A DNA stretch of 59,081 bases from positions 1 through 59,081 of the forward strand of contig CAIWTU010000002.1 in assembly GCA_903915655.1 (NCBI GenBank), written 5' to 3'. Below, in pieces: positions 47,619 through 59,081 of the stretch (position 1 is its first letter; every line of letters begins with the position of its first letter). The notes under the pieces were generated by a model, which searched no databases, was not told the origin of the DNA, and was given only the letters and a program-made list of their open reading frames with translations. The DNA is from an uncultured Geobacter sp. (lineage in GTDB: Bacteria > Desulfobacterota > Desulfuromonadia > Geobacterales > Geobacteraceae). The position numbers were made by a program, and so were the translations under genes.

Positions 47619-50138
47619 TTATAAAAGAGCCGCCCCTCTTTTGAAAATAACCTCGAGTTTTTCGATTTTTACCCCGGTCAACACCGTTACAGACAGACCG
47701 GTAATGGCTGAGACAAATTCCAGCGGTTTTCCCCTCCCGATCACCATCTCAATAGTGGCGTCGGCTATCCTGAGCTCATGCAACTCCTGCCGCAAATCAA
47801 TTTCTATCCTTTTACCCTGCTTTTCCCGGCAAAAAACAAATTCCTTCAATGCGAGAAAATTTTTCACCAGAACCGGCAAATCATCTATCGGCTTGGACGG
47901 CAGGGTGACCCGGTAACGGACCTTCTCCATGATAGTAGAAAGGGATTCACTCCGCAAAGGGATTTCCTCTGCTTCCAAAATTTCCATCCCTTCCGGCAGG
48001 GCTGCATTGAGATCCGCACGTACGCGCGCCACACCATACCCTGGGGCAATCTCCATATCCAGATATTCCGCCACCGATTCTACACCCACGGAGAGGGCAG
48101 TGGCAAATGAGAATTTGGGATGAGGGTGAAAACCTTGGGAATAGCGAATCGGTATGCCAGCCCGTCTGACGGCCCTGGTAAAGAGGTTGAGCATTTCGAG
48201 ATGCCCCAGCAAACGCATCTTTCCGACTTTGGTAAACCGGAGACGGACTCTTTCGCTCCCTCCCGGATGAGTTGATTCATCGCCAGGTGTACCGAAGGGG
48301 ATCGGACCTTCGCTCTTCGGCTCATGCGTCTCGGCCAGCCTCATTTTCACCAGATAGAAATCGCACACTCCGCAGCCGGAGCAAATACCTTTACGGCAAT
48401 CTGCGGTACTTCCGCCGACCAATGATTTTTCCCATTCCTTGAGCAGGAACTCCTTTGTTATGCCACAATCCAGGTGGTCCCACGGTAAAATTTCATCAAA
48501 ATCGCGCCGACGATGATAAAAAAGAGGGTCAATCCCCGTGGCGGCAAAGGCATCCTGCCACTTCCGGAAATCGAAATGCTCTCCCCAGCCGTCAAACCGG
48601 CAACCAAGCTCCCGGGCTTTAAGCAGCAGTGCGCCAAGACGCCTGTCGCCCCGGGCAAAGACCCCCTCCAGAACCGTTAATGGAGCATCTTGCCACTTGA
48701 AATTCAGCTTTCTTTTTTTCAATTCACGACGGATAAACTGCTGCTTTTCAACTGTCTCCTCATAACTTATCTGCTTCTCCCATTGAAAAGGAGTATGGGC
48801 CTTCGGAACAAAACTGCCCACCGATACATTTACATCACCGCCGCCCCCGGCTTTTTTACCTTCTGTTTTAACCTTTTTGCCCAGTTCCGCTATGCCGAGG
48901 AGATCATCCATAGTTTCGCCTGGCAGCCCAATCATGAAATAAAGCTTGATCATCCGCCAACCGGCGCTGTATATAGAGAAGGCATCCAGCAGGAGGTCTT
49001 CCTCAGTTATCCCTTTGTTTATCGCCTGTCGGAGCCTATCGCTACCCGCCTCCGGCGCCAGGGTAAAACCAGTCTTCCTTACTTTCTTTATCTCATTCAC
49101 CAATTCCCCTGTCAGGGTCCCGACACGGAGGGAAGGAAAAGATACTGCCACCTTTTTATCTGAGTACCTCTCCATCAGGCTCCTCATCAGCGGCGAAATG
49201 CAACTGTAATCTGCGGTTGAGAGCGATAGAAGCGATATTTCCTCATAGCCGGAATTTTTCAGTGTCGCTTCGATTACTTCCAGGATTGTCTCCTCTCTCC
49301 TTTCACGAACCGGGCGATAGATATAGCCGGCCTGACAGAAACGGCAACCGGCAGTGCAGCCGCGGGCAATTTCCATACTGACGCGATCATGGACTGTCTT
49401 CAGGAATGGGATAACCGGTGAAACCGGGCAGGGGACTCGTTCAAGGTCGGCGACAATGCGCCTTTTTACCCTTTCATACCCCTGCATGAGGGGGTCTATC
49501 CCGGCAATTTTGCCGCTTTCTGCGTATCTGACATTAAAAAAGGAAGGGACGTAGACACCATCGATCGCGGAAAGGAGCTGCAACAGTCCGTCCTTCGAGG
49601 TGCTCCCCCCCCTCCAGACCCTGTAAGCTTCGGCGATCTCCAGAACAGCTTCCTCGCCGTCTCCAAGGAGGAACGCATCGAAGAAATCCGCCAGTGGCTC
49701 AGGATTCAGCGCACAGGGACCGCCGCCTAAAATGAGCGGATACGCAGCATCGCGATCGGATGCCAGCGGGGGGATTCCTGACAGTTCGAGCATATTCAGA
49801 ATATTTGTATAGGAAAGTTCATGCTGCAGGGTAAAGCCTATAATACCGGCCGAACCGAGCGGGGTCGAGCTTTCCAGAGTTGACAGAGGATGTTGCATGC
49901 TACGCAGCATCTTCTCCATATCCGGCCAGGGTGAGTAAACCCTCTCAGCGGCAATCCATTCAACCTGATTCAGTATATTATAGAGGATCTTAAAACCAAG
50001 ATGACTCATCCCGACTTCATATACATCCGGAAAGGCAAGAACAAAGCGTACCTCAGCATGCTCTTTTTTCACGGCGCCTATTTCACCGCCCATGTATCGG
50101 GCCGGCTTTTCTGTTAAGAGCAAATCGCAATCTGGCAA
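47619..50138 (-). CDS. Radical SAM protein (TIGR03960-type) fused to a DUF2344 domain
   Basis: An 839-residue fusion. The N-terminal region (about 1-210) has the cobalamin-binding-like pattern VRFVLAFPDVYEVGMSHLGFKILY. The radical SAM core has EIARGCTAGCRFCQAGYIYRP (CxxxCxxC). A second Cys cluster, CRKGICSGCGVC, follows at about 600. The C-terminal DUF2344 part begins RVRLRFTKVGKMRLLGHLEML and includes RYSQGFHPHPKFSFATALSVG. The two halves are separate genes in some bacteria. The substrate is unknown; repeated placement beside rng, rplU and rpmA hints at RNA or ribosome work. TTG start with GGAGG four bases upstream; an unusual leader is described separately. Confidence 0.9.
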   Translation of the reverse strand: MPDCDLLLTEKPARYMGGEIGAVKKEHAEVRFVLAFPDVYEVGMSHLGFKILYNILNQVEWIAAERVYSPWPDMEKMLRSMQHPLSTLESSTPLGSAGIIGFTLQHELSYTNILNMLELSGIPPLASDRDAAYPLILGGGPCALNPEPLADFFDAFLLGDGEEAVLEIAEAYRVWRGGSTSKDGLLQLLSAIDGVYVPSFFNVRYAESGKIAGIDPLMQGYERVKRRIVADLERVPCPVSPVIPFLKTVHDRVSMEIARGCTAGCRFCQAGYIYRPVRERREETILEVIEATLKNSGYEEISLLSLSTADYSCISPLMRSLMERYSDKKVAVSFPSLRVGTLTGELVNEIKKVRKTGFTLAPEAGSDRLRQAINKGITEEDLLLDAFSIYSAGWRMIKLYFMIGLPGETMDDLLGIAELGKKVKTEGKKAGGGGDVNVSVGSFVPKAHTPFQWEKQISYEETVEKQQFIRRELKKRKLNFKWQDAPLTVLEGVFARGDRRLGALLLKARELGCRFDGWGEHFDFRKWQDAFAATGIDPLFYHRRRDFDEILPWDHLDCGITKEFLLKEWEKSLVGGSTADCRKGICSGCGVCDFYLVKMRLAETHEPKSEGPIPFGTPGDESTHPGGSERVRLRFTKVGKMRLLGHLEMLNLFTRAVRRAGIPIRYSQGFHPHPKFSFATALSVGVESVAEYLDMEIAPGYGVARVRADLNAALPEGMEILEAEEIPLRSESLSTIMEKVRYRVTLPSKPIDDLPVLVKNFLALKEFVFCREKQGKRIEIDLRQELHELRIADATIEMVIGRGKPLEFVSAITGLSVTVLTGVKIEKLEVIFKRGAALL

Positions 50139-50479: not shown

Positions 50480-50722
50480 ATGAAAAAAGTTCTGTCTACT
50501 CTCGTTGCTGCAATCGTTGCTGTTGCTTTCGCCGGTGTTGTTTTCGCTGCTGAGCCTGCTGCTGCTCCTGCCCCTGCTGCTCCTGCTGCTGCTGACGTGA
50601 AAAAAGAAGAGAAAGCCCCTGCAAAGAAAAAAGTTGCAAAGAAAAAAGTTGTAAAGAAAAAAGCTGCAAAAAAACCTGCTGAAGCTGCTCCTGCTGCTCC
50701 TGCCGCTCCTGCTGCCAAGTAA
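50480..50722 (+). CDS. Small exported Ala/Lys/Pro-rich low-complexity protein
   Basis: An 80-residue protein. A signal peptide (MKKVLSTLVAAIVAVAFAG, cleavage probably after VVFA) precedes a mature part of about 57 residues. That part is made of an Ala/Pro segment (EPAAAPAPAAPAAADV), a basic segment of KKKVAKK/KKKVVKK-like heptads, and a second Ala/Pro segment ending PAAK. It has a strong ribosome site (AGGAGG), a sigma-54 promoter and a strong terminator, so it is a real, probably abundant transcript. The function is not recognisable; a polycationic periplasmic or surface peptide is an inference from composition. The long minus-strand frame over it is its shadow. Confidence 0.75.
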   Translation: MKKVLSTLVAAIVAVAFAGVVFAAEPAAAPAPAAPAAADVKKEEKAPAKKKVAKKKVVKKKAAKKPAEAAPAAPAAPAAK

Positions 50723-50845: not shown

Positions 50846-51571
50846 CTATTTGATATCACCACTAATGCCAATCGTCACTACTTTCAGTGGAATCTCCTTG
50901 CCGCACCCCGCCAGAGCCTCTTTTGCCGCTGCAACGATGCCACCGCAGCAGGGCACTTCCATCCGGAGAACGGTAACACTTTTAATCGTCGATCTCCGGA
51001 ATACGTCCGTTAGTTTCCTTACGTAATCTCCGGCATCCGGCTGTTTCGGGCAACCGATGGCCACCGCCTTGCCAGCAAGAAAATCCCTATGGTAATCCGG
51101 GTAAGCAAGCGGTACACAGTCGGCGGTAATCAACAGATCGGCATCCTGGAAATAGGGGGCGCCAGCAGGAACCAGGGTTAGTTGGACCGGCCATTGACCC
51201 AGCTGACTCTTCCGCCGAGAGTGATCCTCTCCAACCGGCGCTGCCGGGGCAAGCGTTATGCTCTTCGCACCTGGACAGCCACGATTTTCATGCGCGTGCG
51301 GCCGCAGGTTCTGACCCCCTGCAGCTTGACCGCTCTCCTTGAGAGCCTTCGCCGTTACAGTCTCGTGAAATGGCTCCGCATCGCGTTGAATGATGGTTAT
51401 GGCATTCTGCGGGCAGTTGCCGAGGCAGGCGCCCAGTCCGTCACAAAGATTATCGGCAGAAAGAACTGCCTTGCCGTTAATTATCTGAATAGCGCCTTCT
51501 GCACAGGAGGGAACGCATTCACCGCAACCGTTACATTTCACCTGATCAATCAAAACTATTTTTCTCTTCAT
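50846..51571 (-). CDS. 4Fe-4S ferredoxin-type protein with a C-terminal redox domain
   Basis: A 241-residue cytoplasmic iron-sulfur protein. Cluster one has all four Cys (CNGCGECVPSC). The second motif is CDGLGACLGNCP, where Leu replaces the second Cys; this DGLGAC variant recurs in the family. The rest has single Cys blocks: NRGCPGAK, LLITADCVPLAYPDYHRDFLAGKAVAIGCPK and EVPCCGG. Family members are often annotated as ferredoxins in anaerobes; partner and substrate are unknown. Start ATG follows AAAAGGAG. Confidence 0.85.
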   Translation of the reverse strand: MKRKIVLIDQVKCNGCGECVPSCAEGAIQIINGKAVLSADNLCDGLGACLGNCPQNAITIIQRDAEPFHETVTAKALKESGQAAGGQNLRPHAHENRGCPGAKSITLAPAAPVGEDHSRRKSQLGQWPVQLTLVPAGAPYFQDADLLITADCVPLAYPDYHRDFLAGKAVAIGCPKQPDAGDYVRKLTDVFRRSTIKSVTVLRMEVPCCGGIVAAAKEALAGCGKEIPLKVVTIGISGDIK

Positions 51572-51915
51572 GCCAAGCTCCTTTTACCTGTCCAATTAAT
51601 TCCACGCCGACATTACAATCTTTACTAAGCCAGCACACTCCCCCCCTCATGGAAAGAGCTGTTTCTGCGGTGAATCCTCCTCTTACGAGAGGGAGGTCAG
51701 GAGGGGGACCGAGTTATATGAAGAAAAGCTATCAATTGAGGGTTTTGACGGAATTACTTATACGATGAAGCGAGCGTAGCACTTTAGCCATTGATCCGTT
51801 ATGACTCAGGTCAAAAAACGTGGACATTATTGGCATAAGTTGGCATAATTAAGACCCGTAAGGAGCTTTATTTACAACTCTTCATATCTGTTGATATCCA
51901 GCCTTAGGGACAAAC
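51572..51915. other. 344-bp divergent gap before the HEAT gene
   Basis: Holds a CCTCC/GGAGG-rich stretch (about 51666-51706) resembling the dispersed repeat type also seen near 24121, and the sigma-54-like site at 51830-51845. No gene is visible. Confidence 0.4.
51830..51845 (+). promoter_or_regulatory. Candidate sigma-54 promoter for the HEAT/HD-GYP pair
   Basis: TTGGCATAAG directly followed by TTGGCATAA. The GG of the first (51832-51833) and the GC of the second (51843-51844) have the exact -24/-12 offset of 11 bp. The -12 box is TGGC rather than TTGC, so the match is weaker than the one at 50425. Predicted start near 51856, about 60 nt before the ATG. Confidence 0.4.
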
Positions 51916-54150
51916 ATGCATTCACCTTCATCAGAAACCATGCCACCAAAATGTGACAACAAAATATCCGCTGAACCACTCGACGGGAAGATTCTCTCTT
52001 TATTTTTTTACGATCTGAATATTTTTCTCAAAAACCTCTCCGCATACCCCAAGCTACACCCCATGATCAATTATTCAAAACTAAAGGTTCTCTCCAGACT
52101 CGACAGGCTCCTGTCGTCAAGGGAGGAACTTTGCGTAATTATTTCGAGGAACTCACTCCTTGTTGACAAGAACAACATTGACCCTGAAAACCCGGTTTTT
52201 CGTAATCTTGCCGAGAACCTGTTTGCCAAGGGGATTGCCGCCGTAGTTTTCAAGAGGGGTCTGGAGGGGGAAGAGCTTGATCTCTTACATGAAATACTGA
52301 GCCTCGACCGTGAGCTTACCTGGCAGGAAGGGGTTATAGAGAAGAGGCTTGTTGAACGCGGTGCAGGCCATCTCCTTATCGAACGGGTCGACTATGCTTC
52401 ATTTTATTCCACGGAAGGCAACGAATTTTACCCCCGGCAAAAGGAAGCCATTGAGGCCGAAGCAACCCTTTTCTGGCAACACTTTATTCAGAGGATCCTG
52501 AATGAAAAAGAGACGATGCCAAAAAAACAAACCAGCTCCAGCAAAAAATTCCAGCCGGAAGGCCTTGCAACAACCATGAACAGCCGCTCAAAAGAAGCCT
52601 CCCCAACCGCCGGAGATGAGTATGAAGACGCTGTCGACTATTTCATATCACACCTGAAGGAGGAAGTCAGACCCAAAGATCGAGCCGATTTAATAAAAAA
52701 CCTTGATACCCTTGTCCGCACATTGAACCCCGAGCTGCGAAGCCGGTTCGTAAGATGCCTGTGCAATTCGGTTAACGGAAGTGAAGATTTGGCAGGAGAA
52801 ATTTTTGATACTTTTCCTAAGGAAATCATCCAGGAAACGCTGGCGGGTATCGGTCCGAATCGCGATAATGTCCCATATACCATTCTGCAACTGCTTGAAA
52901 AACTTTACGAAAAAAAACTATCGACAGGAGCCGCTTCCCCGACATCCGTATCCACAACTGTAACCGGGGCGGAACTCGATACGCTGAAGATAATTTCCCG
53001 TGAGGAGAGTTCCGGATATTTTATTCCCGCCGGATACCGGGAACAACTCAGCAACACCATCTCGACCAGAGGGATTCCGGAACATTTACGACAGACAGTT
53101 GAAGATATGAAAGGCACGCTATCAGTCAACTTTATAGAAAACAGCATAGGGATGATAATTCTTGAACTATTCGATATCGCCCCTGACGAGGAACAAACCG
53201 AGCAATTAACGAAAACTTTGCTTGACCTCTCCTCTTATCTCCTGGAAACAGGCGACTTTGTTGCTTTGACGACGATATACGACCGGTTCAAGAGGATCAG
53301 ACCATCTTCGGCCCCCGGCATGCAATCAGCTTATGAAAAAATAACCGGCACATTCACTGATCCGACCTTTCTGGCCGAGGTTCTGAACGGCCTCGACTTC
53401 TGGGGAAAAACGAAATTTGAAGGAATAGGGGGACTGATTAAACAGATCGGAGCGCCGTTTGTTACGCCGCTGCTGAATCGCCTCGCCGACGAGCCAAACA
53501 TTTCGACACGGCGTTACTACATGGAAAGGCTCACGGAACTGGGTGATGCAACATGCGAAGCAGTACTGACCCGACTGGATGATAGCCGTTGGTACTTCGT
53601 CAGAAACATGGTGATTCTCCTGCGGGGGACGGGCGGCCCCTCGATTCTCCCGACTATTCGCATGCTGGCATTGCATCCCCGTATCAAAGTACGTCAGGAG
53701 GCATTGAAGACCTTACTCCATTACTGCGATCCGGAAGCAGACCGGCTGCTGCAACTGGACATGCTCAGCAAAGACAAGGGAATATGCTTAAGCGCCATAA
53801 GGCTTGCAGAAAAGAGCCGGAACCCGGAAACCTGTAGAATATTGTTCTGGTTTATCGGAAAAACCGGTTTCACCAACTTTGAACTGGAGCGTAAACGAGC
53901 TGCGGTTCAGGCTCTGGCCGTGACAGGAAACCCTGAAGCACTCCCCATACTTCTGAAACTGTTCCAGACTAAAAATTTTTTGCACCCGAAAAAACAGTAT
54001 CAGCTGAGATTGGAGATAGTCCGTTCGCTCGGCAGGTATCCTGTCGCATCAGTGACCAAGGTCCTGGAGGATATTGTCGACTCTTCTCCCCGTGAGCTGT
54101 CGGAGTTGGCGAGGGATCTACTGGACAATATCGGGGGGAATGGGGCATGA
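51916..54150 (+). CDS. HEAT-repeat protein with an N-terminal domain shared with its HD-GYP neighbour
   Basis: A 744-residue cytoplasmic protein with no signal peptide. Residues about 28-160 form a domain (LSAYPKLHP, NSLLVDKNN, GIAAVVFKRGLEGEEL, GHLLIERVDY) that aligns with the N-terminus of the next protein. A linker rich in Lys and Ser follows (about 195-240), then a helical middle. Residues about 490-740 have HEAT-type repeats (FVTPLLNRLADEPNISTRRYYMERL, LHPRIKVRQEALKTLLHY, PEALPILLKLFQ). HEAT repeats usually bind proteins, so a regulator or scaffold for the HD-GYP protein is likely. It overlaps that gene by 4 bp. Confidence 0.75.
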   Translation: MHSPSSETMPPKCDNKISAEPLDGKILSLFFYDLNIFLKNLSAYPKLHPMINYSKLKVLSRLDRLLSSREELCVIISRNSLLVDKNNIDPENPVFRNLAENLFAKGIAAVVFKRGLEGEELDLLHEILSLDRELTWQEGVIEKRLVERGAGHLLIERVDYASFYSTEGNEFYPRQKEAIEAEATLFWQHFIQRILNEKETMPKKQTSSSKKFQPEGLATTMNSRSKEASPTAGDEYEDAVDYFISHLKEEVRPKDRADLIKNLDTLVRTLNPELRSRFVRCLCNSVNGSEDLAGEIFDTFPKEIIQETLAGIGPNRDNVPYTILQLLEKLYEKKLSTGAASPTSVSTTVTGAELDTLKIISREESSGYFIPAGYREQLSNTISTRGIPEHLRQTVEDMKGTLSVNFIENSIGMIILELFDIAPDEEQTEQLTKTLLDLSSYLLETGDFVALTTIYDRFKRIRPSSAPGMQSAYEKITGTFTDPTFLAEVLNGLDFWGKTKFEGIGGLIKQIGAPFVTPLLNRLADEPNISTRRYYMERLTELGDATCEAVLTRLDDSRWYFVRNMVILLRGTGGPSILPTIRMLALHPRIKVRQEALKTLLHYCDPEADRLLQLDMLSKDKGICLSAIRLAEKSRNPETCRILFWFIGKTGFTNFELERKRAAVQALAVTGNPEALPILLKLFQTKNFLHPKKQYQLRLEIVRSLGRYPVASVTKVLEDIVDSSPRELSELARDLLDNIGGNGA

Positions 54151-55322
54151 AAAAGGAGCAGACAATAGAGCTTACAAACTTCATCCGGAACATGGTAACC
54201 GCCATTGCAAATGTCTCCCTCTATTCCTGCGAGCATCCACAAGTGCTGCGACTTTGTGCAGTGGCGCACAAAACTCTTGACCTGGCGATAGGCTCCGATC
54301 CCTCGATTTCATTGATGCGGTTTGAATCCCAGCTTGTCGTCGACGGGGTGCCACTGGTAACCGACATATACATAACCCGGTTCAGTCAGGCGCTCGAGCA
54401 GTATGGCATAAGCCATGTTAAATTCATGCATGGAATCAGGCAGCAGGAATTACACTCCCTCATCTGCAGCCTGTCAAAACAGAAAGATTACCGAAAAAAG
54501 ATCAGCCCCACCGATAATATCCGCTTCGGCAATATCGAGGAACGAACGCCGGAAGGGGGAGTGGACTTATCTGACTCGGGAAATGGCATAAAAGCAAGAA
54601 CCATAGAAGATATCCATAAGGAAACGATCACCCTTTTCAAGGAAATTCATGCCGGGATAAACAAAAAACGGCCGATCGACATTCGAGCTATTATCAATCT
54701 GGTGAACGGGTTCGTCGTAGAGTGTAAAAAAATGACTTCCCCCTTACAGGCTCTTGCCACTTTGCGCGACCAGGATGAGTATACCTTTGTGCATTCCGCC
54801 AACGTCTGCATACTTAACCTCGCCCAGGCAAAATCCATTGGTATTAACGGGTCCCATCTCTATGATATCGGCATTGCTGCCTTGCTCCATGATATCGGCA
54901 AACTATTCGTGCCGCAGGAGGTATTGAACAAGCCAGGGAGCCTGGACGAAGCAGAAATGGAGCTAATAAGGCAACATCCAGTGAAAGGGGGTCGATACCT
55001 TCTTAATTCACCGGATGTCCCGCGGCTGGCTGTCATAACAACATTTGAACATCATATGAAGTTCGACCTTACCGGCTATCCTCAGGTCACACCAGGCTGG
55101 AAGCTGAATATCTGCAGCGAGATTACGATGATCTCCGATTTCTTTGACGGCATGAGAACCGGCCGAGTCTACAGTGACCCCCTGGATTATGACGGAATCG
55201 CCTCCAGAATGTTGAGCCTGGCCGGGACTGCATTTAATCCTGCCTTGACCGAGAATTTCCTGCAGTTGACATCTGCAGCGCAAACCAGCCCGCTTGTAAA
55301 ATCACCAGGAGAGAGCGGATAG
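54147..55322 (+). CDS. HD-GYP domain protein with an altered GYP motif
   Basis: A 391-residue protein. Residues about 8-131 form the shared N-terminal domain (LYSCEHPQV, LVVDGVPL, GISHVKFMHGIRQQEL, IRFGNIE). The HD-GYP domain (about 185-375) has His216 in YTFVHSANV, HDIGK (248-252), RQHPVKGG and HHMKFDLTGYP (302-312), where most enzymes read HHExxDGxGYP. The metal-binding HD residues are kept, but the Glu and Gly changes make c-di-GMP hydrolysis uncertain. The last block, ISDFFDGMRTGRVYSDP, is typical. The downstream gene is convergent, 41 bp away. Confidence 0.88.
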   Translation: MKKEQTIELTNFIRNMVTAIANVSLYSCEHPQVLRLCAVAHKTLDLAIGSDPSISLMRFESQLVVDGVPLVTDIYITRFSQALEQYGISHVKFMHGIRQQELHSLICSLSKQKDYRKKISPTDNIRFGNIEERTPEGGVDLSDSGNGIKARTIEDIHKETITLFKEIHAGINKKRPIDIRAIINLVNGFVVECKKMTSPLQALATLRDQDEYTFVHSANVCILNLAQAKSIGINGSHLYDIGIAALLHDIGKLFVPQEVLNKPGSLDEAEMELIRQHPVKGGRYLLNSPDVPRLAVITTFEHHMKFDLTGYPQVTPGWKLNICSEITMISDFFDGMRTGRVYSDPLDYDGIASRMLSLAGTAFNPALTENFLQLTSAAQTSPLVKSPGESG

Positions 55323-55363: not shown

Positions 55364-57934
55364 TTAACGGGTGAAAAACTTCTTATTCTCACCTCCAATG
55401 TAGTTGTTGCCCACCACCAGGGGGAGAAACGCCGGCAGCGAGACCAGGGCAAAGAGAACCGTAGCGCCGACGCCGTAATTGGTAGCCCAACCGATAGAGG
55501 ACATGGCGCCATAATCGGCAAATGCCAGGGAACCAAACCCGGCAATAGTTGTCAGAGCCGAGAGCAGGACGGCGCGCCCGGCCTGAACGAATTCGATCCG
55601 CCGTTCTTTCTGCAATCTCCCGGAGACCCTGTGCATGATATGCAGACCATAGTCGCTCCCCATACCGAGGATCGTTACCAGGACCATGGAGTTCATGAAA
55701 TTGAGGCGCATTCCGGTGAGCGCCATAACGCCAAGCATCGCGATGACCCCGGCAAGGACCGGAAAGAGCGTGCAGACAATGCCTGCAAGGGACGCGAAAT
55801 GGGTCAGAAGCAGCAAGAGTACCAGCGCGCCGCCAAGGATACCCCCCCAGAGAAAACTTTTCTTCACTGACCCTGCCAACTGGTTGCTGACAAGATCGAC
55901 GCTGGTTGCCCGAATGGTCGGATCCAGCGCCGTCAGTTCCCGGAGAAATGCCGTCTGATCGAATTCCGTCCCGGAGTAATAGAGGTAGATGAGGTAATGG
56001 AATTCTCCGGCGCCCCGCACCAGATGCCTATCCACCACGCCTCGCAGCGGCGAAGCCAAAAGCCGTTCTACCGCCTCTGCAGTGCCGACAGGGGCACCGC
56101 TTCTCAACCGCGAGAGCCCTTCAACTGCGGCCTGGAACGGTTCAGCGGCAAAACCATTTCTTTCCAGGGAGGCGCGGAGTCTGCGCCCCTGGTCACCCCC
56201 CCCCGAAGCAGTGACCAGGCGCCCCAGAATTTCCCTTTGCACAGGTTCGGCATTGAGCGCCTGGTCGAGGGAAGAATAGGCAGAGATATGCCTGCTCCCC
56301 TTGTATTTTTCAGCAAGGGTGGCGACGCGCCTGCCACGTGCCGTAACATCGTCCAGACTCTTCCCATCCACGACAAGCAACATCTGTTTTTCGCTCAGGC
56401 TCAGATGTTTTTCCATCTTCTCCTGAGTCAGGAACGCCTCAGAGTGGCGTGGCTGCAGGTTTTTCAACTCCCCTTCGAAGGAGATGTAAAATGAAGCAGC
56501 CAGAAGGACGGCAATCAACAGCAGCGTACCCAGGCCCAGTGGTCGAAAATAGCGTCCGGCAAAATCCCATACGGCACCTAGTCCAAACCCGGGCAGAGGT
56601 TTGTAGTCGGCACGCGGAAATTTGCGCTCAGTAAAAAAAAGTAGCGGCGGCAGAAAGAAAAAGGTGGCGTAGAGGGAAAAGATCACCCCTAGTCCGACCA
56701 GAAGCCCAAGTTCGGACAGGGCACGCACATCGGAAAGGGTCAGGGCGAGGAAAGGGAGCGCCGTGGTAGCTGCCGCAGTGAAGACCCCATGGCCGGTATC
56801 GATAACGGCCAGCCTGAGGGCTTCTTCCGTATCCCTGCCGATACTTCGCTCATGATAGAAACGGTCATAAAGATGGATGGAGTAATCGGTACCAAGTCCG
56901 ATAATCAAGGTGGTGAAGGCAAGGGATATGATGTTTATGGAGGTGAGAAAGAGTCCCGCACTGCCGAGCGCCAGCGCCGTTCCGAAAAAAAGTATCCATG
57001 GTATCAGGAGCGTGGGAAGAACGCGCCGGTAGGTGAAGTAAAAGAGCCCGAGCACCACGAACAGGGACGATACCACGCAGGAGATGATGTTTCGCTTCAT
57101 CACCGATTCATCGATCACTGCGCTCAGATGGGCGCCGGCACAGGTAATCTTCACGGTGAAACCTTTGCGGGCGCCATTGATCCCGGCGACCAGCTTTCGT
57201 GCGAACGGCATGTCATTTACCGGCTGCGCCGGCTCTGCAATCATGATGAGCAGACGGCCGTCCCGGGAGAGAAAATAGGGTGACGTGCTGTCCAGGGCAA
57301 AAGCCTGGGTGGCCGCCTTCAGACGGGGGAGAAGGAGGTCGCGCAAGGAGAGAGGGTCTGCTCTGATAATGTCGCGCATCCCCATACCAGCCTGGCTGGC
57401 AAGCTCCGTGCCGACTCGCCGGAGTGAGCAATCCATGGCCCGTGGATTCAGCTTTTCGGCAAGGAGACCGGCATCCTCCGGGGGGAGAAAGAGCTGGGGA
57501 TGAGCTGCTGCGTACCCGACAAAAGCTGCAAAGGCCCCCGCTTCAGCCGGGTCATAAACCTGGTATACAACTTTGTTGAAGGCGGGCTTCCCCTCCACCT
57601 GCAGAGCTTTCAGTCGAGAGGCAAAGAGCTCCGCATCGGCGATGAGAGCCGGACTCTCCCCTTCCAGAAGGAAGTAGGCATCCCTGGCGCCGCCGCTCCA
57701 CTCCATCGATTCAAGGAAGAGCCGGAGCGGTCCCTTCTGGGTGGGAAAGAGTTTGAAGATATCCGATTCAAACCGGATATTACCGATGGAGAGAAAGGCC
57801 AGGCCGAGGAGAAGAAATGCTGCGCAGAGCACCGGCAGCGGCCTGGTCCGGGTAATCCGGCAGATCCATTCCAGATGGGCCTTTATTAGATTTCGGGCAA
57901 ACGCGGTTGCATGACCGGTCAGATTACGCAGCAT
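55364..57934 (-). CDS. MMPL/RND-family exporter (lipid type)
   Basis: An 856-residue inner-membrane transporter with two similar halves. Each half has one leading membrane segment, a large periplasmic domain and a bundle of five helices. The proton-relay motif occurs twice: LIIGLGTDYSIHLYDRF and ILGMGSDYGLHIMHRV. Members of this family move hopanoids, mycolate-like or aryl-polyene lipids across the envelope. It lies 6 bp downstream of the LolB-like gene, and the pairing of exporter with outer-membrane lipoprotein supports lipid traffic. The substrate cannot be named from the sequence. Confidence 0.9.
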   Translation of the reverse strand: MLRNLTGHATAFARNLIKAHLEWICRITRTRPLPVLCAAFLLLGLAFLSIGNIRFESDIFKLFPTQKGPLRLFLESMEWSGGARDAYFLLEGESPALIADAELFASRLKALQVEGKPAFNKVVYQVYDPAEAGAFAAFVGYAAAHPQLFLPPEDAGLLAEKLNPRAMDCSLRRVGTELASQAGMGMRDIIRADPLSLRDLLLPRLKAATQAFALDSTSPYFLSRDGRLLIMIAEPAQPVNDMPFARKLVAGINGARKGFTVKITCAGAHLSAVIDESVMKRNIISCVVSSLFVVLGLFYFTYRRVLPTLLIPWILFFGTALALGSAGLFLTSINIISLAFTTLIIGLGTDYSIHLYDRFYHERSIGRDTEEALRLAVIDTGHGVFTAAATTALPFLALTLSDVRALSELGLLVGLGVIFSLYATFFFLPPLLFFTERKFPRADYKPLPGFGLGAVWDFAGRYFRPLGLGTLLLIAVLLAASFYISFEGELKNLQPRHSEAFLTQEKMEKHLSLSEKQMLLVVDGKSLDDVTARGRRVATLAEKYKGSRHISAYSSLDQALNAEPVQREILGRLVTASGGGDQGRRLRASLERNGFAAEPFQAAVEGLSRLRSGAPVGTAEAVERLLASPLRGVVDRHLVRGAGEFHYLIYLYYSGTEFDQTAFLRELTALDPTIRATSVDLVSNQLAGSVKKSFLWGGILGGALVLLLLLTHFASLAGIVCTLFPVLAGVIAMLGVMALTGMRLNFMNSMVLVTILGMGSDYGLHIMHRVSGRLQKERRIEFVQAGRAVLLSALTTIAGFGSLAFADYGAMSSIGWATNYGVGATVLFALVSLPAFLPLVVGNNYIGGENKKFFTR

Positions 57935-57940
57935 GACGAG

Positions 57941-58657
57941 CTACACCCCACTGAAGTCGGTAATGGGACGCAGGTCAAGACCATCCAGGAGCGGAACCAG
58001 CGCTCCCTCCTCCACCGGCTGGTTTATTTCCGGCTCATCGAAGGAGACTTTCACCGTATTGCCCCGCCTGTCGCGCATTTTTATGACTGCAGGGAAGGCA
58101 ACCCCATTAATTTCCTGGTAGTTGTCATAAAAGATCTGCTCACCATCTTCGTTTATTTTCCGCTGCAGAAGCCCCCTTGCATCAAACAGCAGAAATTCTT
58201 TCCTCCCATCCTGCCGCACCTGCTCCTGTTCGCCCCCCGCAGAGCCGTTTGCCGCCGGCGGGGTCTCCACCACCCAGCGCATCAGGCTCCACCCTTTGAG
58301 GGGATTTCCCTCGGGGAGTTCGGAAAAAGTGCCGGTGTAGGCAATCTGCTTTGAGGGGATAATGCAGGTCACGCTCTCACCGTTGACGAAAACCTCCATC
58401 ACAGTAACGCCAAACGGCGCAAGCAGGACAAGATGAAACCGTCCGGGACGTTTGAAGATGAGGTAGCCGTTCCCCCCTATGCTACCGGTGGAGCTCTCTA
58501 CCGCCAGGGAAACAACCGACTGCAGGGTTTCCACTTCCTTGCCGGGCTTCATGGGTAGAGGCGGCTTCGCCATTGTAGCGCAAGACGATAGCGCCAGAAT
58601 CAGCAGTGACGCCAGAATGATTTGCCTGATAATCAAGGGGGTTTTTGTCAAGGACAT
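57941..58657 (-). CDS. LolB-like outer-membrane lipoprotein
   Basis: A 238-residue lipoprotein: signal peptide MSLTKTPLIIRQIILASLLI with lipobox ALSSC (Cys26, Ala at +2, compatible with the outer membrane). A LolA/LolB-type beta-sheet domain follows: GNGYLIFKRPGRFHLVLLAPFGVTVMEVFVNGESVTCII, then NYQEINGVAFPAVIKM. The frame is open 36 codons further upstream, but ATG 58657 has AGGAG five bases before it and a correct signal peptide. It precedes the MMPL exporter. Confidence 0.82.
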   Translation of the reverse strand: MSLTKTPLIIRQIILASLLILALSSCATMAKPPLPMKPGKEVETLQSVVSLAVESSTGSIGGNGYLIFKRPGRFHLVLLAPFGVTVMEVFVNGESVTCIIPSKQIAYTGTFSELPEGNPLKGWSLMRWVVETPPAANGSAGGEQEQVRQDGRKEFLLFDARGLLQRKINEDGEQIFYDNYQEINGVAFPAVIKMRDRRGNTVKVSFDEPEINQPVEEGALVPLLDGLDLRPITDFSGV

Positions 58658-59081
58658 CACAACTCCTGTTTCGTTTTTCCAACCGTTATTTTCGTGGTTG
58701 TTCATCATAGCACAACCACCCGGAGAGATGCCACCCATCTCAATAGTTTCCGAATTGGAAACCAAATAAATCCCGGCGACATGACAGGTTATTGTGGCTT
58801 GAAAAATAACGACAAGCTGTGTATTGTTTCATCATGCAAAAAGTTGTCGCATAAATTGACCCTCGGGATGCTGTACAGCACCCCCAATTAATACAGTTCT
58901 CTTGTCTCGCTCTGCCGGAAGATTAGTCCCTTGAAACTTATGGCTCACTTGAAGTATTTGTGGGTAGATTTCAGGGAATGGAGGCCTGAACAGCTACCCG
59001 GTTAATGAAAATAGAGCATCCCGTCTTCAAATCAGGCATTATGGGTTTCGACCAAGAAAACCAGTGCTGGAAAAGGAGAAC
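58658..59081. other. 424-bp region at the window end without a recognisable gene
   Basis: No protein-like frame or RNA gene is visible. The last bases contain AAAAGGAG, which may be the ribosome site of a plus-strand gene beginning just past the window. Confidence 0.4.

Follow-up and report, generated by a model that had tools for sequence, protein, structure and literature searches.

A HEAT-repeat gene and a variant HD-GYP gene with a shared N-terminal module: a candidate two-gene cyclic di-GMP unit in Geobacter and its relatives

Introduction

Keeping signals separate is a central question in cells with many cyclic di-GMP (c-di-GMP) enzymes, and complex formation figures in one of three proposed answers (PMC8844925). 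The subject here is a pair of overlapping genes, encoding a HEAT-repeat protein and an HD-GYP protein, in a 59,081-nucleotide stretch of DNA from an uncultured Geobacter sp. (assembly GCA_903915655.1, contig CAIWTU010000002.1; phylum Desulfobacterota, class Desulfuromonadia, family Geobacteraceae), the whole of which is called the window. The two proteins begin with homologous modules, and the genes stay adjacent and in the same order far beyond the genus. A HEAT/HD-GYP pair is not described in any of the literature matches listed, a search of titles and abstract openings that placed preprints and most subscription papers outside its scope.

The nearest solved relative of the HD-GYP protein by sequence is PmGH of Persephonella marina (structures 4mcw, 4mdz and 4me4), a GAF and HD-GYP protein with the same catalytic domain (phmmer E=3.5e-21). 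Alanine changes at the PmGH metal ligands, D183, D308 or K225 strongly reduce or abolish activity (PMC4159591). The window protein has seven of the eight metal ligands, equivalents of D183, K225, D308 and R314, and the GYP triad; of the activity-critical residues it keeps all but E185. It differs from PmGH in carrying a new module where PmGH has GAF, in having Y212 for E185, and in having methionine for the glutamate of the HHE motif.

Structurally, the catalytic region is best matched by Bd1817 of Bdellovibrio (3tm8, 3tmb-d; Z 22.0, root-mean-square deviation 3.1, 219 residues aligned), which has non-consensus ligands and is inactive on c-di-GMP (PMC3774798), whereas the window protein has all seven ligands. 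Foldseek aligns Bd1817 over about 330 columns. The VIA rows of the HD-GYP model lie mainly at residues 148-386, and the VIA alignment with Bd1817, which begins at model residue 148, leaves the module uncovered. PA4108 and PA4781 of Pseudomonas aeruginosa (PA4781 being structure 4r8z) are likewise HD-GYP phosphodiesterases with other N-terminal domains, that of PA4108 being termed uncharacterised, and the excerpts of the source mention no HEAT partner (PMC3774798). The window module, for its part, has no Pfam domain.

RpfG contains a receiver domain. RpfG-type proteins resemble the window protein as HD-GYP phosphodiesterases with a proposed protein partner, and they bind GGDEF partners (PMC4159591; PMC3774798). 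The window protein, in contrast, lacks a receiver domain; a HEAT protein is proposed as its partner, with the shared N-terminal module rather than the GYP loop as the suggested contact. Scaffold subunit A of protein phosphatase 2A (PP2A-A) provides a works-like analogy only, as a HEAT alpha-solenoid carrying a phospho-enzyme; PP2A-A chains occur among the Foldseek matches of the HEAT model, but nothing points to kinship beyond a generic HEAT fold (query-length TM-scores of 0.17-0.32 for the matches listed). PP2A-A and its enzyme are not known to share an N-terminal module.

The shared N-terminal module

An earlier note on this DNA had proposed that the two proteins share an N-terminal module, pointing to 11 identities in 29 ungapped positions (HEAT residues 101-129, HD-GYP residues 82-110) and to the weaker flanks AYPKLHP/LYSCEHP and SLLVD/QLVVD. 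The core match was recovered, the best ungapped 29-mer in 60 shuffled controls reaching 10 identities, and both flanks fall in register within one N-terminal alignment. The local score is 62, where shuffles average 28.4 (standard deviation 4.9; 1 of 1000 shuffles as high), and BLASTP matches the N-termini with each other over 134 columns at E=1e-4. Comparison of orthologue profiles (18 HEAT rows, 20 HD-GYP rows) with hhalign gives a probability of 98.4 and a score of 90.6 over 107 columns. The highest score among 200 column-shuffled profiles is 20.96, and the remaining parts of the two proteins, set against either module, give a probability of at most 1.62. The proposed module is thus upheld by a significant profile match, and it extends beyond the limits first drawn: the match runs from about residue 25 to 132 in the HEAT protein and 7 to 113 in the HD-GYP protein, a module of some 110 residues, with identity of only about 22% over 107 columns.

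AlphaFold2 models of the full-length proteins, built from separate alignments of 4 sequences each with no common row, have mean predicted local distance difference test (pLDDT) values of 77.0 and 68.7. The predicted helices (H) and strands (E) are H24-43 H49-65 E71-76 E81-83 H93-104 E107-113 H118-129 in the HEAT module and H3-25 H31-48 E53-59 E62-65 H74-85 E90-94 H99-109 in the HD-GYP module. At the level of element order and aligned positions (alpha-alpha-beta-beta-beta-alpha-beta-alpha), the two modules agree as the earlier note anticipated and no difference of fold is seen; fold identity rests on this order of elements.

Among 27 module members scanned, no Pfam family is common to the module, any one family matching at most two members with a best E of 0.003 in one. 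The best PDB sequence match to the module profile is an engineered cytochrome c555 trimer (7e-08, no single stretch passing), with Octarellin V.1 at 4e-04; the 11 PDB matches are short and partial, with E up to 1, and were taken as spurious. The 27-row alignment has one invariant tyrosine and one nearly invariant histidine. From sequence, these results suggest that the module is an undescribed domain.

Behind the module, the HEAT protein model is mostly helical at about residues 175-740, with several stretches of pLDDT below 50 (longest 338-405). HEAT_2 matches in four stretches, best at 660-727, and exceeds its Pfam cut-off, which together with the alpha-solenoid model places the protein in the HEAT family; the Foldseek rows listed are HEAT and other solenoid proteins. 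It does not belong with the NblB/phycobilin lyase HEAT proteins (16.8 bits against a curated cut-off of 300).

Conservation of the gene pair

Within the window's GTDB family, the window-type HEAT gene occurs in 20 of 48 genomes and the window-type HD-GYP gene in the same 20, adjacent every time. The other 28 have no window-type HD-GYP match, and none of the 48 has such a match without a HEAT gene. A 21st genome with an HD-GYP match, G037, carries a second, shorter type of pair, which is also present in G007 and, beside their own window-type pair, in G034, G042 and G046. Individual genomes depart from the plain pattern: the HEAT gene of G042 has two in-frame stops; that of G044 is split over two contigs, with the piece bearing the gene end abutting HD-GYP; G043 (69% completeness) has HEAT fragments and no HD-GYP match; G004 has an additional partial HEAT gene; and G039 has two pairs. 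The 4-bp gene overlap of the earlier note, an ATGA, was confirmed with its coordinates and frames (Table 1). The 20 window-type junctions, the window's included and the G039 pair on contig C66 left outside the count, comprise 17 with this -4 ATG overlap, one 2-bp gap, one of -8 and one that is unmeasurable.

Profile A1, a module profile of 27 rows that include the window's HEAT and HD-GYP sequences, finds the module in 133 of 146 genomes of the class, in even copy number in 115 of the 133. In a phylum sample it finds 124 copies in 53 of 118 genomes, among them 40 coordinate pairs in 31 genomes. Scanning of 80 fetched regions (79 from the phylum sample, plus G060) with local profiles places HD-GYP directly after HEAT in 55, namely 39 coordinate pairs, G060 and 15 more in which one module had been below the first search's threshold, undetected or cut off. 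With the window's own pair included, 42 of the 53 module-bearing genomes of the phylum sample have the pair. HEAT comes first and HD-GYP second in all 39 fetched coordinate pairs, the HEAT frame being broken in two in L112 and L137. The pair is present, too, in 57 of 60 further regions chosen from the HEAT-type class matches listed.

Removal of duplicates brought 131 collected pairs down to 128 distinct ones, a set that excludes loci L017-L059, i.e. most window-type pairs of the window's own family, and includes the window, G006, G010, G038 and G046. One locus has the whole pair tandemly duplicated as HEAT-HD-HEAT-HD (L193, 7766-14427). The nearest named relative found, a metagenome-assembled genome (MAG) of Desulfuromonadaceae, L011, has 29% identity in its best HEAT segment, and two Deltaproteobacteria MAGs, L012 and L013, have the shorter pair. 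The conserved pairing that the earlier note had asked about holds, adjacency and order being kept far beyond the genus. A tblastn search of plasmid records gave 540 with HD-GYP-region matches and none covering 80% of the query. A WYxVRN motif in the HEAT protein was considered as a marker of the partner and dropped, as it occurs in only 18 of 69 module-HEAT frames.

The HD-GYP enzyme

The window protein has the ligand pattern H...HD...H...HH...D (PMC8177086), with seven metal ligands at H216, H248, D249, H277, H302, H303 and D331, and exceeds the curated Pfam cut-off for HD_5 (46.6 bits against 27.2). Across the collected pairs, every one of the 126 HD-GYP proteins readable at these columns retains all seven ligands and the GYP triad (G310 Y311 P312 in the window). 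The equivalent of K225 is a lysine in 128 of 128, and that of R314 is kept in 123 of 128.

The window's signature motif reads HHMKFDLTGYP. Since the glutamate of HHE is absent, the protein is called an HD-GYP variant; in the 126 readable sequences that residue is replaced mostly by L, M or I, and 78 of 78 readable members of an earlier set of 80 are also without it. Of the 128 proteins, 85 have aspartate and 37 asparagine at the signature D position, and 19 have glycine at the G position. Four other HD-GYP copies checked in the window's genome all have HHE. The protein does not belong to the trinuclear E/D-T-G subfamily, with Y212 at the E185 position and Y there in 126 of 128; by its sequence it fits the Y/F subfamily (PMC4159591). 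Nor does it belong to the NosR-family response-regulator c-di-GMP phosphodiesterases (NF053512, 69.0 bits against a cut-off of 400). With these residues and all seven ligands conserved, the metal site is kept under selection and is probably active, and we infer that the substrate would be c-di-GMP.

The module in other c-di-GMP proteins

The other 25 of the 80 regions comprise nine with HEAT and no HD-GYP within the fetched sequence, six with the module and a GGDEF-like domain, five GGDEF-AAA-module-HEAT, three HEAT-cNMP (cyclic nucleotide)-PilZ, one histidine kinase and one cut by a contig end; in the GGDEF-AAA-HEAT, HEAT-cNMP-PilZ, GGDEF-like and histidine-kinase proteins the module heads the chain or sits inside it. 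The GGDEF-AAA-module-HEAT proteins reach about 1430 residues (L141, 500-4774; L155, 313-4611; L147, 68-3613; L140; L156), and two of them, in L141 and L155, carry two modules in tandem. Module-HEAT-cNMP-PilZ proteins have about 950 to 1690 residues (L161, 1315-4176; L169, 1484-6556; L176, 1010-5422, minus strand). In proteins of 740-761 amino acids (L144, L146, L148, L149, L153, L163), a long middle region separates the module from a GGDEF-like C-terminus, and the histidine kinase of L177 has the module at its head. Pfam bears out the domain names in L141, L161, L169 and L177, and in L147 with AAA below cut-off; GGDEF is above cut-off in L149 and below it in L153, L163 has only a sub-threshold PelD_GGDEF match, and L148 has none. 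The proteins of L140, L144, L146, L155, L156 and L176 were classed by reading their sequences.

Gene neighbourhoods were compared at 17 loci, 16 fetched long-HEAT loci (L194 shortened by a contig end) and the window. Four of them have a GGDEF gene next to the pair and on its strand, downstream in three and upstream in one, and these four loci come from four GTDB families (f1, f3, f15, f20). Two of these genes have a Tll0287-like sensor domain, one has a receiver and GAF, and one has no clear second domain. Equally frequent (4 of 17) are two further clusters: a frame antisense to the HD-GYP gene, and a downstream ABC-type ATPase gene. A third obligatory neighbour was rejected, no other cluster exceeding 4 of 17 in a scan that hid some HD-GYP frames behind longer antisense frames. 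The ATPase gene, co-directional with the pair, occurs in L184, L192, L193 and L194, all of GTDB family f5.

At shorter-type loci, a small HEAT protein of about 190-240 amino acids is encoded on the opposite strand beside the pair (L014, 7878-8504, minus strand; L100, L102, L104, L113, L114, L115, L122, L123, L131, L134), and possibly represents a third component there. The second HEAT gene of the window's genome has such a neighbour too. None was flagged at the window's pair or at any of the 16 fetched long-HEAT loci.

Role of the pair

Four features are evident from the sequences: the homology of the modules, the conserved adjacency and order of the genes, the intact metal site, and the recurrent c-di-GMP company of the module. 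Because the two proteins share a front domain and their genes stay together in many related bacteria, they probably form one signalling unit. With moderate confidence, we read the pair as a conserved two-gene c-di-GMP unit, in which a HEAT scaffold and a dinuclear-type HD-GYP phosphodiesterase variant would be joined by the pairing of their like, undescribed N-terminal domains; hetero-association is the likeliest role of the module. The two modules that stand in tandem in L141 and L155 are what would be expected of a domain that pairs with its like. The overlapping genes would give coupled, near-stoichiometric synthesis of the two proteins, whose modules would pair and hold the enzyme on the scaffold. 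The scaffold may in turn dock other proteins or sense their state, and c-di-GMP would be degraded locally, not cell-wide.

Partner fidelity was followed through sequence similarity and covariation. Over 69 pairs, similarity among the HEAT proteins tracks that among the HD-GYP proteins (matrix correlation r=0.81), and swapping partners inside multi-pair genomes lowers r to 0.64 on average, with 1 of 1000 swaps equal to the real value (the identity arrangement being among the possible swaps). For covariation, 123 of the 128 pairs were used in a reduced alphabet (five gappy pairs dropped). Averaged over the ten strongest inter-module couplings, the real pairs outscore every one of 100 near-relative swaps and 100 full shuffles, in a set whose effective number is only 78 and whose within-module maps disagree; in the same low-power set, 5 of the 100 near-relative swaps and none of the 100 full shuffles attain the single best inter-module coupling.

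Several observations weigh against a two-gene unit of this kind. Matched trees are also expected from linked inheritance alone. The within-module coupling maps of the two proteins disagree (correlation 0.01, 0 of 30 top couplings shared), so contacts are unreadable from the covariation data. Even module copy number is far less marked in the phylum sample (31 of 53 genomes) than in the class, and nine of the 80 regions have a module-HEAT gene with no HD-GYP gene in the fetched stretch. The same regions hold no HEAT/HD-GYP fusion. The -4 ATG overlap is common in the long-HEAT type only (46 of 72 pairs against 9 of 56 of the shorter type). The window's genome has four module copies, the window pair plus a second HEAT gene (contig C56) and a second HD-GYP gene (C160), and these last two lie on different contigs. 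Pfam, NCBIfam and neighbourhood scans show no GGDEF gene next to the pair in the window. Finally, the full HHExxDGxGYP signature is absent, M304 standing at the E position in the window and E occurring in 0 of 126 readable sequences.

As the module also occurs outside the pair, in GGDEF, PilZ and histidine-kinase proteins, a role in sensing or self-association is possible too. Each module might, on its own, sense a cue common to both (a small molecule or third protein); the two proteins would then respond in parallel, co-encoded for joint synthesis and with no need of contact. Input domains usually sit at the front of a protein, and such a common sensor would account for the module's position at or close to the N-terminus in HD-GYP, HEAT, GGDEF-like and histidine-kinase proteins, as well as for the invariant tyrosine and near-invariant histidine. 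We nevertheless regard it as unlikely, since it leaves the pairing of HEAT with HD-GYP in particular unexplained, and since neither a ligand nor a known sensor fold was found, Pfam giving no consistent match, though no fold search was made with the module alone.

Somewhat less probable again is that the module homodimerises the HD-GYP protein and, separately, the HEAT protein, which would leave the shared domain uninformative on contact between them. HD-GYP proteins can dimerise, PmGH being a homodimer (PMC4159591), and the tandem modules of L141 and L155 fit like-with-like pairing. Homodimers, however, have no need of HEAT and HD-GYP copies that are adjacent and co-duplicated. That the module was merely duplicated, with adjacency due to co-regulation or history and no shared mechanism, is improbable: the low identity of the two modules means that any interface may have diverged, and linked inheritance by itself yields matched trees, but adjacency persists across many families of the phylum and copy number is even in most module-bearing genomes of the class.

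Hetero-association through the module thus remains our preferred reading of the pair. More tentatively, the module could be an undescribed, phylum-wide domain that assembles c-di-GMP machinery, in trans between HEAT proteins and variant HD-GYP proteins and in cis, through tandem copies and fusions, with GGDEF, PilZ and histidine-kinase domains, as an unnamed local c-di-GMP hub.

The locus

Both genes flanking the pair, a ferredoxin-like gene upstream (50846-51571) and an RND-transporter-like gene downstream (55364-57934), lie on the opposite strand, so the HEAT and HD-GYP genes form a self-contained unit (Table 1). A c-di-GMP riboswitch upstream of the pair was considered and dropped, there being zero Rfam matches in the whole window at the gathering threshold.

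Table 1. Coordinates of the HEAT/HD-GYP pair and its parts in the window
Feature	Position	Strand	Details
HEAT-repeat protein gene	51916..54150	+	744 amino acids; open frame; Pfam HEAT_2 52.5 bits against cut-off 27.7
HD-GYP protein gene	54147..55322	+	391 amino acids; open frame; Pfam HD_5 46.6 bits against cut-off 27.2
ATGA start/stop overlap of the HEAT and HD-GYP genes	54147..54150	+	4 bp shared by the two reading frames
Shared N-terminal module in HEAT protein, residues about 24-177	51985..52446	+	Module profile A1, E=1.1e-45
Predicted alpha-solenoid of HEAT protein, residues about 175-744	52438..54147	+	DSSP of AlphaFold2 model; HEAT repeats towards C-terminus
Shared N-terminal module in HD-GYP protein, residues about 3-145	54153..54581	+	Module profile A1, E=2.7e-41
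HD-GYP catalytic domain, residues about 194-380	54726..55286	+	NCBIfam NF053512 stretch 194-380, below family cut-off; phmmer to 4mcw
Gap between divergent ferredoxin-like gene and HEAT gene	51572..51915	.	344 bp; promoter of the pair presumed here

The RND transporter, in the stretch 55364-58765 (minus strand), is akin to HpnN (180 of 752 bits) and HAE3 (178 of 352 bits), both below cut-off. A lipoprotein-like gene with weak LolB/LolA matches follows it within the same stretch, and the two are perhaps an outer-membrane lipid transport pair. On the other side of the locus, an 80-amino-acid open reading frame at 50480-50722 (plus strand) begins like a signal peptide and continues with a body rich in lysine, alanine and proline (KKKVAKKKVVKKKAAKK); opposite it, a longer Phe/Ala-rich frame is probably its antisense shadow. 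At 47619-50138 (minus strand) lies a gene for a fused B12-binding radical SAM protein, with TIGR03960 and TIGR03936 both above their cut-offs.

Implications

The HHE glutamate is consistently missing while the seven ligands are all retained, and this combination marks a subgroup of HD-GYP proteins. The module, found in proteins that synthesise, degrade and receive c-di-GMP, together with the widely kept HEAT/HD-GYP pair, offers a concrete candidate for a complex that may keep c-di-GMP signals separate.

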